A DNA stretch of 64,000 nt, taken from contig NC_010003.1 of the NCBI RefSeq assembly GCF_000018605.1, positions 1-64,000 on the forward strand, given 5' to 3'. The translations under genes were made by a program, and so were the position numbers. Shown in pieces: positions 6,759-58,908 of the stretch. Every line of letters begins with the position of its first letter. Position 1 is the stretch's first letter. The stretch comes from Petrotoga mobilis SJ95 (lineage in GTDB: Bacteria > Thermotogota > Thermotogae > Petrotogales > Petrotogaceae). A model generated the notes under the pieces. That model worked only from the letters and a program-made list of their open reading frames with translations. It ran no database searches and was not told where the DNA came from.

Positions 6759-6777
6759 AAATTGAATACATATTTTT

Positions 6778-6863
6778 AGCCTCCCTTCGCTGGTATTATC
6801 CAGATCAGGTAGTCAGGGTCGATGCCTTTTTGGCATCCTCTCAGCCTTTCAGCTCCCCTGGCC
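6778..6863 (-). promoter_or_regulatory. TPP (THI-box) riboswitch
   Basis: Read on the minus strand, the element shows the classic THI motifs in order: GGGGAGC, CTGAGAGGATGCC, a short P3 hairpin, GCATCGACCCT, ACCTGATCTGGATAATACCAGCG and AAGGGAGGCT. It controls the thiBP-type genes by the terminator just downstream. This is the main content of the 343-nt gap 6633-6975. Confidence 0.95.
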
Positions 6864-6975
6864 ATTTGTTATTTACTTTCAAACTTATTATATCACATTT
6901 TTTTAAAATATGATAAAATATTTTAGAAATTATTTTTGTAAAACAATCTTATTATTTAAGGAAAGGGGTTAAAAA

Positions 6976-23403: not shown

Positions 23404-23576
23404 AAAATTAATCCTCCCCAAACTTAAATTCTCTTAAAATTAATATTTTTTAGAATTTACAAAACTTCTTACCGCCCTAAGCACCCTAGATTAGTTCGAA
23501 ATGTTAAATTATTTTTGTTTTTTTAATAATAGTTATAACAGAATTTATCATTTTCAAGGAAAACTAAGATTTTTGG

Positions 23577-23636
23577 CTCTAATCGTCTTTATTCGGATTT
23601 AATTGGTTCTAATAGCTTCTAATTTCATATAATTAC
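23577..23636 (+). promoter_or_regulatory. Array of six 10-bp phased TAAT repeats
   Basis: The cores TAAT or TATT begin at 23580, 23590, 23600, 23610, 23620 and 23630, exactly one per 10 bp. Four units share (T/C)TCTAAT or TTTAAT-type sequence. The array ends 3 bp before the -35 of the sugar ABC promoter, and the last core starts 32 bp upstream of the -10. A second array with the same period and distance is at 54725-54768. Possible roles: tandem activator sites on one helix face, or bent DNA. Confidence 0.7.
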
Positions 23637-23639
23637 CTT

Positions 23640-23667
23640 TTGAGATGAAGGTTACATGTGATAAAAT
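23640..23667 (+). promoter_or_regulatory. Promoter of sugar ABC operon
   Basis: TTGAGA (23640-23645) and an extended -10 TGATAAAAT (23659-23667) are spaced by 16 nt, leaving a leader of about 50 nt. Upstream lies the phased array. These two elements are what the 322-nt gap 23404-23725 holds. Confidence 0.65.
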
Positions 23668-23725: not shown

Positions 23726-24967
23726 ATGAAAAAAGTAGTTGTTTTATTTGCTATATTGACGATGGTGTTGAGTGCCTTTTCTATTACCATTACAATGACA
23801 GCGGGTGCAGTAGGAAGGGAATTAGAAGTTCTCAATGAACAAGTTGAGATGTTTATGAAAGAAAACCCAGACATAACGGTAAATGTTCTTCCAATGCCCA
23901 ACAGCTCTACGGATAGGCACGATCTTTACGTTACTTACTTAGCTTCAGGTACCCCTGATCCAGATGTATTAATGCTTGACGTTATCTGGCCAGCAGAATT
24001 TTCGCCATTCTTAGTAGATTTGACTGATGACTATGATTATTTTGGACTTGATGGATTTTTCCCTGGAACCGTTGCTTCAAATACCGTCGATGGCAGTTTG
24101 GTAGCAGTTCCTTGGTTTACTGATGCAGGTATTCTTTATTACCGAAAAGATTTGTTGGAAAAGTACGGTTACGATGTTCCAGAAACATGGGATGAACTTT
24201 ATACAATTGCAAAAGATATATCCCAGAAAGAAGGAATCGAAGGTTTTGTATGGCAAGGAGCCAGGTATGAAGGTTTAACCTGTGACGTTATGGAATTCGT
24301 CCATAGTTTTGGTGGAGAAATAATGAAAGATGGAGAAGTTGTCGTTGATGATCCTGAATATTACGATAACAATGTTGCAGCAATAACCTTTATGGATAAA
24401 TTAATAGAAGATGGCGTAAGTCCAAGGGGAGTAACTACCTACATGGAAGAAGAAGCTAGAAGAATTTTCCAAAATGGTGACGCAGTTTTTATGAGAAACT
24501 GGCCATACGCATGGTCCTTAGTTAACGCTCCCGAGTCACCAGTTGCTGGAAAAGTTGGTATAACGGTTCTTCCAAAAGGGCCCGAACCAGATGGAAGGAA
24601 TTCTGCTACTTTGGGTGGATGGAACCTTGGTATAAACGCAAACTCTTCTGCTGCAGAGGTAGAAGCTTCTAAAAAACTGATCAAATTCTTGCTTAGTAAA
24701 GAACAACAAGTTTACAAAGCGGTTTATTCAGGTCAAACACCAACTATGATCGAAGCATACAACGATCCAAGAACTATTGAAGCAAATCCTTTCTATGCTG
24801 ATCTTTTAGATGTTTTCTTGAATGCTGAACCAAGACCAATTTCTCCAATATATGCTGAAATTTCTTACGAGATACAAGTTGCTGTTCACGAAGTTTTAAC
24901 GCAGCAAGCTGAACCTGAAGATGCTCTAAACAACTTAGCAGAAAATCTCAAATCTATAGTTGAATGA
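23726..24967 (+). CDS. Sugar ABC transporter substrate-binding protein (maltose/trehalose type)
   Basis: This is a periplasmic or exported family 1 solute-binding protein of 413 aa. The signal peptide is KKVVVLFAILTMVLSAFS. The mature part shows MPNSSTDRHDLYVTYLASGTPDPDVLMLDVIWPAEFSPFLVDLT and VPWFTDAGILYYRKDLLEKYGYDVPETWDEL, typical of trehalose/maltose binding proteins of Thermotogales and Thermococcales. The permease genes follow after a stem-loop at 25000-25034. The ribosome site is AGGAGGTG before ATG 23726. The exact sugar is inferred from family likeness only. Confidence 0.9.
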   Translation: MKKVVVLFAILTMVLSAFSITITMTAGAVGRELEVLNEQVEMFMKENPDITVNVLPMPNSSTDRHDLYVTYLASGTPDPDVLMLDVIWPAEFSPFLVDLTDDYDYFGLDGFFPGTVASNTVDGSLVAVPWFTDAGILYYRKDLLEKYGYDVPETWDELYTIAKDISQKEGIEGFVWQGARYEGLTCDVMEFVHSFGGEIMKDGEVVVDDPEYYDNNVAAITFMDKLIEDGVSPRGVTTYMEEEARRIFQNGDAVFMRNWPYAWSLVNAPESPVAGKVGITVLPKGPEPDGRNSATLGGWNLGINANSSAAEVEASKKLIKFLLSKEQQVYKAVYSGQTPTMIEAYNDPRTIEANPFYADLLDVFLNAEPRPISPIYAEISYEIQVAVHEVLTQQAEPEDALNNLAENLKSIVE

Positions 24968-34519: not shown

Positions 34520-34540
34520 GTAATGAAGTTAATATTTACT

Positions 34541-34682
34541 GCATTATTTTAAGGGAAAACGGTGAAAATCCGTTACGGTCGCGCCACCGTAATCGGGGAC
34601 GAAACTTACAAAAAGCCACTGGAGAGATCCGGGAAGGCGTAAGGAGTAGAGTGATCCGAAAGTCGGGAGACCTGAATAATGC
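34541..34682 (+). promoter_or_regulatory. Cobalamin riboswitch
   Basis: P1 is formed by GCATTATT (34541-34548) and AATAATGC (34675-34682). Inside, the conserved pieces appear in order: AGGGAAAACGGTGAAAATCCG, the TACGGTCGCGCCACCGTAA hairpin, GCCACTGGAGAGATCCGGGAAGGC and the B12 box AGTCGGGAGACCTG. It precedes a BtuFCD-type operon, as expected for an adenosylcobalamin sensor. Confidence 0.93.
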
Positions 34683-34684
34683 TG

Positions 34685-34758
34685 TTTTTTCTATCTCTTC
34701 GCGCCAAAGAGATAGAAAAAATGTTTAAATGGCGCTAATTTATACAAGGAGGCCATTT
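34685..34758 (+). promoter_or_regulatory. Riboswitch expression platform (two hairpins)
   Basis: A perfect 15-bp hairpin (34685-34699 with 34707-34721) follows the aptamer but lacks a T-run. A second inverted repeat, AAATGGC (34727-34733) and GCCATTT (34752-34758), includes the last G of the ribosome site AAGGAGG. The loop of the first hairpin (GCGCC) is complementary to GGCGC at 34731-34735. This suggests control of translation initiation rather than termination. Confidence 0.6.
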
Positions 34759-54591: not shown

Positions 54592-54724
54592 AAATTTCCT
54601 CCTCTTTATAACTTAGATTATCAATGAAATTTTATAATTCCTTTTTTATTATATCATACGAATAAACGTTATGCAAACCTTTTTCAAATTTCTTAAAATA
54701 GAGAAAAACGAAGTTTTTCTCACT

Positions 54725-54768
54725 TATTCGATGATAATCGCCTATAATCGTCTCTAATCAGGAATAAT
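54725..54768 (+). promoter_or_regulatory. Array of five 10-bp phased TAAT repeats
   Basis: The cores TATT, TAAT, TAAT, TAAT, TAAT start at 54725, 54735, 54745, 54755 and 54765, exactly 10 bp apart; the first three are TATTCG, TAATCG and TAATCG. The last core starts 32 bp before a TAAAAT -10 box, the same distance as in the sugar ABC promoter (23577-23636). No good -35 is seen, which would fit an activator-dependent promoter. A TTTGATTA/TAATCAAA hairpin lies between array and -10. Confidence 0.7.
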
Positions 54769-54796
54769 TTGATTAGCTTTTTTTTAATCAAAAAGG

Positions 54797-54802
54797 TAAA
54801 AT
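54797..54802 (+). promoter_or_regulatory. -10 box upstream of the LacI/pullulanase locus
   Basis: TAAAAT at 54797-54802 is placed 32 bp after the last TAAT core of the array. It lacks a recognisable -35. If used, the transcript would run about 320 nt before the LacI gene, through the G-rich and hairpin repeats. Confidence 0.45.
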
Positions 54803-54818
54803 AAGATTGAGTAAAAAA

Positions 54819-54830
54819 GGAAACGGTTCC
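54819..54830 (+). promoter_or_regulatory. Probable LacI-type operator
   Basis: GGAAACGGTTCC is an imperfect palindrome with a central CG, as in LacI-family operators. It lies 17-28 nt past the -10 box, over the likely transcription start. A related half-match (GAAAC and TTTTC) is at 56161-56176 before the pullulanase. Confidence 0.5.
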
Positions 54831-54836
54831 TTATTG

Positions 54837-54934
54837 GTGGAAAGCGGGGCGAAGGGGCAAATACTCCTTTATCCTTTAGGTAAAGGAGCTTGGAGAAGGG
54901 GCAAAAACTCTTTTATCCTTTAGGGTGGGGAGCG
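54837..54934 (+). repeat. Tandem G-rich repeat region (copy F)
   Basis: A G-rich repeat (GGTGG, GGGG, GGGG runs at 54837-54857) is followed by a second partial unit 44 bp on. The near-identical pieces are at 54864-54880 and 54908-54924, each TCCTTTATCCTTTAGG-like. A third copy start (GGGTGGGGAGCG, 54923-54934) is cut off by the hairpin repeat. The orientation toward lacI is the same as the other copies, but the distance (about 270 nt) is larger. Confidence 0.7.
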
Positions 54935-55040
54935 TTTGCTGCAATTTGCAAACTATGTTTTTTTGCAGTTTTATGCAAAATGGTTTTTTTCGTAATGTTT
55001 TTGAATAACTTTCCTAATCTCATTTGCTTTGCAAATGATG
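54935..55040 (-). repeat. Single copy of the CATTTGC hairpin repeat
   Basis: On the minus strand it reads CATTTGC-AAA-GCAAATG, then ATTCAAAAACATTACGAAAAA, then TTTTGCA and GCAGCAAA, matching the tail of copy 3 at 43825-43900. Thus the same family occurs 11 kb away, and it directly abuts the G-rich repeat. Confidence 0.7.
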
Positions 55041-55129: not shown

Positions 55130-56134
55130 GTGAAAGAGAAAAAGAGAAATCCAAATCCCACTATTAAAGACGTAGCACGACTCGCCAACGTTGGAATAGC
55201 AACAGTTTCAAGGGTATTAAATAATTCCGAAAAGGTAAGCGAAAAGACAAAAGAGAAAGTTCTAGAAATCATAGAAGAGTTGGGATATTCTCCCAACATT
55301 AACGCTAGAACATTATCTTCAAAAAATATAAATTCTCTTTCTTTTGTAACACCAGACATGGGAAACGAATTTTATGGAATCATGTATTCTCTACTTGAAA
55401 AGAAAATTTCTCGAAATAATTATAGGTTGATTGTTTTTCCCCTCATAGATCAGATATCTCTGGAAAAGATTAAGCAAAATACTGATCTAATTTATCAAAC
55501 CGATGGTGTGTTTATCTCTTCTCTTTCCGTTTCAAGTATTTTTCATAACAGAATTCCCCCTAAGAAAATAATATTGATCGATTCATATGATGAGAGATTC
55601 GATTCTGTTTACGTTGATAATTATCAAGTCGGGAAAACAGCCGCTCAATATCTCATAAATAATTCACCTGCAAATAGTACTTTCTATTTAGTTACTTTTA
55701 AGGAGCTCAACAATGAATTTACCTCTTTCGTCTTCAAAAAAAGAGACGAAGGTTTTTTAGAAGTTATGGAAGAGAACAATAAAAAGGTAAAGATTATATA
55801 TAGCGATTTATTGTGGGATGGGGGGTATAAAGCGATTGGAACCCTTATAAAAAGGCGCCCCAGAAAATATTCATCCATTTTTGCAACATGTGACATGATT
55901 GGAGTAGGTGTCAAAAAATACTTGGAAGAAATGAATATGTATCCAAAAAAGGATTATTCATTGATAGCTGTTGACAATCTTCCTATTAGTAGGCTATTTC
56001 AATTAACAACGATTAGACAACCGATTAGCGAAATGGTCGAAATTGCTTATGAGATGTTCGTCTCTTCCATGGAAGGAAGAGAAAAAGCTGAACATTACAA
56101 ATTGGAAGCCAAAATAGTAGAAAGAGAAACATAG
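55130..56134 (+). CDS. LacI-family transcriptional regulator
   Basis: The N-terminal helix-turn-helix and hinge are clear: TIKDVARLANVGIATVSRVLNNSEKVSEKTKEKVLEIIEELGYSPNINARTL. The periplasmic-binding-protein-like effector domain follows (SLSFVTPDMGNEFYGIMYSLLEKKI; VDNLPISRLFQLTTIRQPISEM). I start at GTG 55130 (GAGGTGA upstream); the longer frame back to 54890 runs through repeat DNA. The gene lies 74 nt before the pullulanase, so the likely ligand is an alpha-glucan oligosaccharide. Operator candidates are at 54819 and 56161. Length 334 aa. Confidence 0.9.
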   Translation: MKEKKRNPNPTIKDVARLANVGIATVSRVLNNSEKVSEKTKEKVLEIIEELGYSPNINARTLSSKNINSLSFVTPDMGNEFYGIMYSLLEKKISRNNYRLIVFPLIDQISLEKIKQNTDLIYQTDGVFISSLSVSSIFHNRIPPKKIILIDSYDERFDSVYVDNYQVGKTAAQYLINNSPANSTFYLVTFKELNNEFTSFVFKKRDEGFLEVMEENNKKVKIIYSDLLWDGGYKAIGTLIKRRPRKYSSIFATCDMIGVGVKKYLEEMNMYPKKDYSLIAVDNLPISRLFQLTTIRQPISEMVEIAYEMFVSSMEGREKAEHYKLEAKIVERET

Positions 56135-56160: not shown

Positions 56161-56176
56161 GTGGAAACCTTTTCAC
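56161..56176 (+). promoter_or_regulatory. Possible LacI-type operator before pullulanase
   Basis: GTGGAAACCTTTTCAC is an imperfect palindrome (GTGxAAA and TTTxCAC) 33 nt before the pullulanase start. It shares GGAAAC with the site at 54819-54830. Confidence 0.4.
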
Positions 56177-56208
56177 TATATCACAACTTCAAAAGGAGGT
56201 CGGTATTT

Positions 56209-58908
56209 ATGAGGAAAGTAGGTTACTTTTTGCTAGTATTCTTCTTAATTTCTTTGTTGTTAGGTTGTTCCGCGCAAGCAGATCAAGCCACACAAACTCA
56301 AGCTTTGCCTGAAGAGGTTGAAAGTACAAATCCTAACAATTTTGTAAGCCTTTCTGAAGGGAAAACCGCTGCTAACTTTGACGCACAGACCGTTTTGATC
56401 GTACACTATCACAGACCTGATGGTGATTATGAACCTTGGAATCTTTGGATTTGGCCAAGTAAACCTGTTTCCAAAGAAGGCGCTAGATATTTATTTGAAG
56501 GTGAGGATAGTTTTGGTAAGTATGCGATTGTCAAATTTGAGGAAAAACATGAGGAGTTGGGGTTCATTGTAAGAACAGATAGTTGGGAAAAAGATATTTC
56601 AATGGATAGATTCGTGAGTATACCTGAAAGCGGAGTTGCTGAAATATGGGTCTTATCTGGAGTAGAGAATTACTATACCGATCCTAAAAACCTTGACTTA
56701 AGTCCCCGAGTAAATGCAGCTATCATGGATTCTTTCGATGAAATAAAGGTTAGTCTAACGGTACCCTTTGATACAAAAGAGTGGGAAGGAAAAGTCCACT
56801 TTTATCAGGTCGATGGTTCTGATCCTATTGCCATGGATGTATCAGATGTTTATAAAACCGATCCCACCGATATTTCTGTTACCTCAAATATTACAATAAA
56901 ACTAGCTAATCCAATATCTTCCCAGGATGTGGATAAATTGTATAAAATAGATATAGAAGGATATGTATCAGAAAATTATGTGATTATGCGTAATATTTTA
57001 GATGAGGAAGTTTTTCATTACTATGGGAACGATTTAGGAGCGGTTTATTCTCCAGCTAAAACAGATTTTAAAGTATGGTCCCCAGTATCCTCAGAAGCAA
57101 AGGTACTACTTTTCCATGATTATTTGGATGAAGAACCATATAAAGAAATTCCCATGTCAAAAAACGATAACGGAGTTTGGCATGCCACTATGAACGGTGA
57201 TTTAAAAGGGCAATATTATCTATATGAGTTCGTATCTTATGGCGAAACAAGAAGAACAATAGATATTTATTCCACAGCTCTTGCCGTCAATTCCGCGAAA
57301 TCAGCTATTATAGATTTGAATGATACAGACCCAGTAGGTTGGAATAACGATACAAGACCTGTTCTTAAAAATCCTGAAGATGCAATTGTTTATGAAATTC
57401 ATGTAAAAGATTTTACAATAGATGAAAGCTCTGGAGTTCCAGAAGAGTACAGGGGTAAATATCTTGGATTGACTGTAGACAATACACAATCCCCCACAGG
57501 TGTGAAAACAGGATTATCACACCTAAAGGAACTTGGAGTTACTCACGTTCACATTATGCCTATTCAAGATGCTGGTTCTTTAGATGAAACTAAATTCGAT
57601 GAGCAATACGGTTGGGGATACGATCCCTTAGTGTACAATGTTCCAGAAGGTATTTATTCGACAGATCCATACGATCCATTAAAGAGAATAAATGAAGTGA
57701 AAACCGTAGTCAAAACTTTTCACGAAAACGGTATAAGGGTTGTGATGGATGTTGTGTACAACCATACATACCAAGTCGGAAAGAATTCACCTTTCGATCA
57801 AACAGTTCCTTACTTCTATTACCGTACTGATCAATCTGGGAAATATACAAATGGATCTGGAGTGGGGAACGAAGTAGCCACGGAAAGGTTCATGGTGAGA
57901 AAATACATAGTAGATAGTTTAAAGTATTGGGTCGATGAGTATCATGTTGATGGATTCAGATTCGATTTATTAGGTTTATTTGACAAAGAAACGGTAAAAA
58001 CAATATCAGAAGAATTACATGCCCTACTACCAGACGTACTTTTGTATGGAGAACCATGGACTGGTGGCGGTCAAATAACGTTTGGCAAAGGAGACCAAAA
58101 AGGTTTAGAGGTAGCTGTATTCAACGATGATGTTAGAGACGCTATTAGGGGAAGCGTATTTGAACCTGAGGTCAAAGGTTTTGGATTAGGGGCTGCAGGA
58201 CAACAAACAAAGATAAAAAGAGGTGTTGTCGGATCTATTGAATACGACAGCACAATAAGATCATGGGCACAAGACCCACAAGAAACTATGAACTACGTTT
58301 CCAACCATGATAACCATACCTTATGGGATAAAAATGCACTTGCTCTCGGTGTAAAACCGTGGGAAGAAGAGTTAGACCCACAAACTTTAGAAACCTTAAA
58401 AGCCTCTCAAAAATTCTCCAATGCAATGATCTTAACGATGCAGGGTGTACCCTTCTTACACGGTGGGGTGGATTTTGCAAGGACTAAGAACGGTAATCAT
58501 AACCCATACAATGTTTTAGAACCAAACGTATACGACTGGAACAGGAAAAGCGAATTTTACGATATATTTGAGTATTACCAAGGTATGATAGAATTAAGAA
58601 AAGCTCATCCTGCTTTTAGAATGACCAATAGTGAAGATATAATAGCTCACATTGAATTTTTCGAACTACCTAAAGAATATAGAAAAACCGTTGCTTTTAT
58701 CATAAAAGATAATGCAAACAACGATCCATGGAAAAATATTGTGGTTGTCTACAATGCAGAACCAGAATCTTCTGTTCAAATCACACTACCTGAAGGCGAA
58801 TGGAATTTAGTTGTAAATGAAAACACAGCTGGTACCGAAACACTGAATGTAGTGGAAGGAACAATCGAAGTGTCACCTTTATCCGCTTACGTTTTATATC
58901 AAAACTAA
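56209..58908 (+). CDS. pulA: Type I pullulanase lipoprotein
   Basis: This GH13 enzyme cleaves alpha-1,6 links in pullulan and branched alpha-glucans. Signal: a lipoprotein start with lipobox LLLGCS. Domains in order: a CBM41-like starch-binding region (VLIVHYHRPDGDYEPWNLWIW), a CBM48 region (YSPAKTDFKVWSPVSSEAKVLLF), then the GH13 barrel. The type I pullulanase motif YGWGYDP is near residue 470; the catalytic nucleophile is in DGFRFDLLG, the acid/base in LYGEPW and the third acid in VSNHDNH. A chain of about 899 aa (from ATG 56209) is near the usual size. ATG 56209 has AAAAGGAGG upstream. It is anchored outside the membrane, feeding sugars to transporters. Confidence 0.93.
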   Translation: MRKVGYFLLVFFLISLLLGCSAQADQATQTQALPEEVESTNPNNFVSLSEGKTAANFDAQTVLIVHYHRPDGDYEPWNLWIWPSKPVSKEGARYLFEGEDSFGKYAIVKFEEKHEELGFIVRTDSWEKDISMDRFVSIPESGVAEIWVLSGVENYYTDPKNLDLSPRVNAAIMDSFDEIKVSLTVPFDTKEWEGKVHFYQVDGSDPIAMDVSDVYKTDPTDISVTSNITIKLANPISSQDVDKLYKIDIEGYVSENYVIMRNILDEEVFHYYGNDLGAVYSPAKTDFKVWSPVSSEAKVLLFHDYLDEEPYKEIPMSKNDNGVWHATMNGDLKGQYYLYEFVSYGETRRTIDIYSTALAVNSAKSAIIDLNDTDPVGWNNDTRPVLKNPEDAIVYEIHVKDFTIDESSGVPEEYRGKYLGLTVDNTQSPTGVKTGLSHLKELGVTHVHIMPIQDAGSLDETKFDEQYGWGYDPLVYNVPEGIYSTDPYDPLKRINEVKTVVKTFHENGIRVVMDVVYNHTYQVGKNSPFDQTVPYFYYRTDQSGKYTNGSGVGNEVATERFMVRKYIVDSLKYWVDEYHVDGFRFDLLGLFDKETVKTISEELHALLPDVLLYGEPWTGGGQITFGKGDQKGLEVAVFNDDVRDAIRGSVFEPEVKGFGLGAAGQQTKIKRGVVGSIEYDSTIRSWAQDPQETMNYVSNHDNHTLWDKNALALGVKPWEEELDPQTLETLKASQKFSNAMILTMQGVPFLHGGVDFARTKNGNHNPYNVLEPNVYDWNRKSEFYDIFEYYQGMIELRKAHPAFRMTNSEDIIAHIEFFELPKEYRKTVAFIIKDNANNDPWKNIVVVYNAEPESSVQITLPEGEWNLVVNENTAGTETLNVVEGTIEVSPLSAYVLYQN

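Follow-up and report, generated by a model that had tools for sequence, protein, structure and literature searches.

The window analysed here, the 64-kb stretch at the start of the single 2,169,548-bp contig of Petrotoga mobilis SJ95, has a GC content of 34% and contains two arrays of TAAT-type cores. Array 1 (23580..23639, plus strand) consists of six 10-bp units, TAATCGTCTT, TATTCGGATT, TAATTGGTTC, TAATAGCTTC, TAATTTCATA and TAATTACCTT, with cores starting at 23580, 23590 (TATT), 23600, 23610, 23620 and 23630. It is preceded by a block of A/T tracts (AGATTTTT, 23557..23579, plus strand; AAAA at 23560) that shares its helical register and keeps a fixed distance from the -10. The last unit adjoins a -35-like TTGAGA (23640..23645, plus strand; 16-bp spacer), followed by an extended -10, TGA plus TAAAAT (23659..23667, plus strand). 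The gene downstream encodes an ABC transporter solute-binding protein (SBP_bac_1; 23726..24967, plus strand) and heads an operon with permeases.

Array 2 (54725..54774, plus strand) has five units, TATTCGATGA, TAATCGCCTA, TAATCGTCTC, TAATCAGGAA and TAATTTGATT, with cores at 54725 (TATT), 54735, 54745, 54755 and 54765, and also follows an A/T-tract block (GAGAAAAACGAAGTTTTTCT, 54695..54724, plus strand). Its promoter has a -10 TAAAAT at 54797..54802 (plus strand); 3' of this lie a LacI-type operator-like palindrome (AAGGAAACGGTTCCTT, 54817..54832, plus strand) and genes for a LacI-family regulator (55130..56134, plus strand) and a pullulanase (56161..58908, plus strand). Core spacing is exactly 10 bp throughout both arrays, and the final core starts 32 bp before TAAAAT in each (23630 to 23662; 54765 to 54797)—the layout and coordinates given by an earlier sequence-only reading were reproduced exactly. 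Beyond these two arrays, the 64-kb window holds no run of at least three TAATs at any spacing from 7 to 14.

Two other kinds of element occur in the window. Rfam places its two riboswitches, cobalamin (34529-34693, plus strand) and TPP (6765-6869, minus strand), away from the arrays, and a structured RNA at the arrays was rejected. The leader of the LacI gene (54840-54935) carries two imperfect copies of GGGGCGAAGGGGCAAA..CTTTATCCTTTAG; GGGGCGAAGGGGC stretches like these copies recur in further intergenic regions of Petrotoga (L319, L241) and represent a dispersed repeat.

Genome-wide occurrence and promoter register

Genome-wide counts were obtained from pattern and model searches and from sampled stretches. 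About 35 arrays were collected across the genome; the two noted at first are both real, but the element had been under-called. The pattern TAATN6TAATN6TAAT has 41 matches, and when both gaps are left free, the 10/10 spacing accounts for 20 of the first 100 TAAT-triplet matches listed, any other pair of spacings accounting for 0-5. In a 464-kb sample, made up of the window and 20 stretches spaced evenly over the genome, runs of four TAATs occur at a period of 10, the sole other case being one run at the multiple 20. A five-unit score above 20 with the unit position weight matrix (PWM) is reached at 25 positions in this sample, against none in reversed sequence. The high-scoring places are intergenic; as exceptions among the runs and arrays, a TAAT run at 1415501 sits inside a gene and the array at 1939333 is directed away from the only nearby promoter.

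Arrays contain 4-6 repeats at exactly 10 bp, and the consensus of 121 units is T-A-A-T-Y-R-N-N-W-W, or TAAT-Y-R-N4. The step at unit positions 1-2 is TA in 99% of units and that at positions 5-6 is pyrimidine-purine (YR) in 72% (CG, TG, TA and CA all occur), whereas YR steps elsewhere in the unit reach at most 20%. This concentration of YR steps at two places argues for a deformability code beyond AT-richness.

The units are directional and face a sigma-A promoter, with cores 32, 42, 52 and so on bp 5' of the -10 hexamer. An automatic scan picked the best -10 hexamer blind to phase; for 25 of the 35 arrays, this hexamer started at 2 (mod 10), counted from the cores (p about 7e-18). Manual correction raises this to about 29 of 35: in four further arrays (336760, 522449, 1009811 and 2115964), a phase-2 promoter emerges once the array start is corrected or the hexamer ranked second is taken. 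A small second class (951192, 1888796, 1942661 and 1964749) has phase 6, with the -10 lying 4 bp further, at a distance of 36 or 26. What is kept of the 32-bp distance is its phase; the value may be 32, 42 or 52, and the phase-6 class departs from it.

When 29 rows are anchored on the -10 (-12 to -7; up to three rows imperfectly anchored), TA starts occupy -44, -54, -64, -74, -84 and -94 in 17, 19, 24, 24, 24 and 15 rows, respectively, and then end. The units tile up to the -35, whose first T is also the final position of the last unit, and the -35 boxes of array promoters match TTGACA at a mean of 4.8 of 6 positions. The 5' A/T tracts stand in array register (AAAA at d=102 and GA..ATTTT at d=94-88 from the -10). 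Ordinary promoters show a mild enrichment of single TAATs in array phase, to which array-bearing promoters contribute.

Downstream genes and conservation

The genes downstream of arrays, part of whose identities were assigned from sequence by eye, include those for sugar-binding proteins (23726, 70774 and 1550293), four LacI and one GntR regulator, peptide-binding proteins, OppD and the chaperone GroESL. Further targets are glutamine synthetase (GS), glutamate dehydrogenase (GDH), two aminotransferases, prephenate dehydratase, FBPase, GH4, a beta-galactosidase-like glycosidase and GcvT. The set is not specific to alpha-glucan use. Neither of the two rRNA promoters checked carries a TAAT array.

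Two side observations concern sequences beside arrays. At L074 (minus strand, from about 192050 to 191930), no ORF follows the array promoter (start 192133); in its place is a roughly 100-nt stretch that ends in a terminator-like hairpin and may be a small RNA gene. Three other Petrotoga genomes keep the array of this locus, and a comparison with Rfam gave no convincing match. Separately, the palindrome TGAAAWWWWTTTCA has 20 sites in the genome, against 3 for the reversed control (e.g., 336768, 1416329, 1423380, 1583576, 1668716, 1712834, 1715245, 1724322 and 1739625). About half of these precede a TAAT array by 15-34 bp, and others are placed just 3' of a -10; the genes concerned serve amino-acid and peptide use (GDH, aminotransferases and Opp proteins) and, assigned by eye, include methylmalonyl-CoA-mutase-like and threonine-dehydrogenase-like genes. 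We take the palindrome to resemble the archaeal FL11 feast/famine site.

Arrays are present in all six Petrotoga genomes, with 30-37 matches to the five-unit model in five of them (SJ95 included) and 13 in the sixth. Outside the genus, among 103 Thermotogota, the sister-genus genome G035 has 8 matches, genus g3 has 2-3, and no other genome exceeds 2. Gene-anchored regions upstream of gene 23726 keep six cores, the 10-bp spacing and the 32-bp distance in G047, G049 and G051; variable columns number 2 of 24 in cores and 24 of 36 in spacers. Judged from these alignments, the cores are kept while the spacers drift between species. No array lies directly upstream of the orthologue in G035, G036 or G037, and G035 has a TAAT run about 430 bp upstream. 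G047, G049, G051 and G035 all retain the groES array, which is followed by a CIRCE-like element, and phase 2 to the -10 is also seen in other species and genera. An exact search for four cores plus TATAAT across 84,980 species, in which records near SJ95 may be omitted, returned 17 unrelated, scattered single matches.

The sequence-only reading had proposed a search of related genomes, and arrays do recur there upstream of coding sequences and are kept in close relatives. Random scatter, placement inside genes or loss in relatives would have spoken against an element of this kind; the strong-score arrays are instead intergenic and conserved. The analysis shows a directional, one-turn-period element that is locked to predicted sigma-A promoters and is under selection.

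Possible readings of the arrays

The arrays look like an undescribed docking track, either for a transcription activator or for RNA polymerase itself. The former reading, to which we give a little less than an even chance, is of a tandem operator whose protein would recognise specific sequence, deform the DNA and line up head to tail, in register with RNA polymerase. A single global, lineage-specific protein would bind the array, each 10-bp unit, with its TAAT core and flexible YR step, taking one protomer. Protomers would stack head to tail on one helix face, from about -94 to the -35 box, and the TA and YR steps would be where the DNA is deformed; the resulting filament could offer sigma region 4 and the alpha-CTDs a surface in register with them and so activate the sigma-A promoter. 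Local repressors (LacI type, HrcA/CIRCE and others) would be superimposed on this activation. We infer the binding, the oligomerisation and the activating effect alike; of the one-face tandem element for an activator proposed earlier, the tandem arrangement, the single face and the fixed helical distance stand, and the activating protein is a matter of inference. A more ambitious claim, that the arrays are an undescribed bacterial promoter element—a one-protomer-per-turn filament track into the -35, acting genus-wide as an activation platform for nutrient-uptake and metabolic genes—is possible but doubtful.

The main rival is an extended UP element, though we lean against it. The TAAT cores would then be multiple alpha-CTD subsites (-44, -54, -64 and so on) that recruit polymerase and guide upstream wrapping without a dedicated activator. 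The cores at -44 and -54 fall within the ranges of the known subsites, which are proximal at -45 to -37 and distal at -58 to -45 (PMC2613000). The exact tiling to the -35 box, the complete sigma-A promoters with good -35 boxes and the coexistence of arrays with CIRCE and LacI-type operators fit as well, and RpoA has the alpha-CTD DNA-binding residues. In T. maritima, UP elements are suggested by an increase in AT content upstream of the -10 (PMC3636130), and alpha subunits use phased A-boxes in H. pylori (PMC4081817).

Several observations, however, argue both against the UP element and for a dedicated protein. The 4-6 conserved units outnumber the two alpha-CTDs of a polymerase, and occupancy is highest at -64 to -84 (24/29) rather than at -44 and -54 (17-19/29). 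The invariant TpA and the deformable YR step are foreign to the A-tract signature; an invariant TpA is unlike narrow-groove A-tracts. Both rRNA promoters are without an array, while the targets form a nutrient set (sugar and peptide uptake, GDH, GS, aminotransferases and FBPase). Finally, the taxonomic range is narrow although the alpha-CTD contact residues are identical in array and non-array genera, which rejects alpha-CTD divergence as the source of the lineage restriction. As a separate observation, the linker that joins alpha-NTD to alpha-CTD in RpoA includes an acidic, E-rich stretch in Petrotoga and its nearest genera (G000, G047-G051 and G035-G037).

The dedicated-protein reading draws further on the rigid 10.0-bp direct repeats with fixed direction and phase 2 to the -10, on the conservation of core over spacer columns (2/24 against 24/36), and on the precedent of BldC on 9-bp repeats (PMC5859096). 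Four findings weigh against it. The -35 boxes are good (4.8/6), but a poor -35 is common where a promoter depends strongly on an activator; arrays are found together with several unrelated operators, as would equally be expected of a constitutive enhancer; single TAATs in array phase show mild enrichment at ordinary promoters; and the search turned up no candidate protein. HTH_17, the fold class of BldC-like proteins and the sole family tested, has one sub-cutoff match in the genome, with an internal stop, and no BldC homologue above cut-off.

An improbable reading is an architectural module, in which phased flexible (TA plus YR) and A-tract DNA is wrapped by a nucleoid protein such as HU or by polymerase, with no sequence-specific protomer per unit. 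TA and YR steps do occur once per turn, as in easily wrapped TATAAACGCC-type DNA, and phased upstream A-tracts keep a fixed register. In a wedge model, the 5' flank is somewhat curved (mean z 1.1), but the array shows no excess over dinucleotide shuffles (mean z 0.3). Static curvature of phased, intrinsically bent DNA—the alternative first offered for the arrays—is thereby weakened and unsupported for the array itself, and the strict TAAT core and fixed direction exceed the needs of flexibility.

An operator for an alpha-glucan-specific activator is very improbable: both window arrays flank sugar-uptake and pullulanase genes, but the genes behind about 33 further arrays are groESL, GDH, GS, peptide transporters and others. 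The alpha-glucan link drawn from the window is a window effect because the genome-wide targets are many unrelated metabolic genes plus groESL, and the specific operator is rejected on this list. Chance periodicity, for which only the AT-rich window speaks, is practically negligible and is rejected on the enrichment restricted to the 10-bp period, the PWM result against reversed sequence, the phase-lock and the conservation of cores between species.

Significance and comparison with known systems

Rigid in its very regular one-turn spacing and phase-locked to the -10, this architecture is shared by about 35 promoters and has been conserved throughout the genus. The arrays pose a testable question: is a sigma-A promoter driven by a tandem filament or by more than two alpha-CTD subsites? 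A search of the open-access literature on tandem repeats, phased UP elements and the promoter motifs of Petrotoga or Thermotoga found no description of the array, in agreement with the earlier reading, which knew of no described Thermotogota motif of this form; the one genome-wide motif paper covering P. mobilis reports only TTGAC-N18-TATAAT (PMC5217627). Carbohydrate regulation in Thermotoga is described as purely local, with no global sugar regulator found (PMC3750489). A dedicated array-binding protein would, in contrast, be a global regulator in Thermotogota.

BldC, a MerR-like protein of Streptomyces, binds head to tail to a variable number of 9-bp AT-rich direct repeats (PMC5859096). Its operators share with the array head-to-tail direct repeats in variable number upstream of promoters, an AT-rich core plus a C/G contact, and DNA distortion. 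They differ in their 9-bp unit (AATTNNNNC, against the 10-bp TAATYRNNNN), and they are not known to have a phase-lock to the -10 such as that of the array. The Petrotoga genome, moreover, has no BldC-type (HTH_17) protein above cut-off.

UP elements resemble the array in their AT-rich cores about one turn apart on the sigma-A promoter face; the -44 and -54 cores lie within -60 to -40 and adjoin the -35, but the array runs on to -94. An UP element consists of two A-tract-like subsites, is strongest at the proximal one and is typical of rRNA promoters; the array has 4-6 strict TAATYR units with TpA, peaks at -64 to -84, is absent from rRNA promoters and is confined to a subset of promoters. In the phased, UP-like A-tracts of H. 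pylori sabA (PMC4081817), AT elements stand 10 bp apart upstream of the -35, as in the array's 5' block. The array units proper, in contrast, are TAAT plus YR with no predicted curvature. C. perfringens plc provides another phased A-tract promoter element. Nucleosome-favouring repeats of the TATAAACGCC type have a TA step every 10 bp and CG half a turn away, and their consensus is near-identical to that of the array; however, the array is directional, phase-locked to promoters and bacterial.
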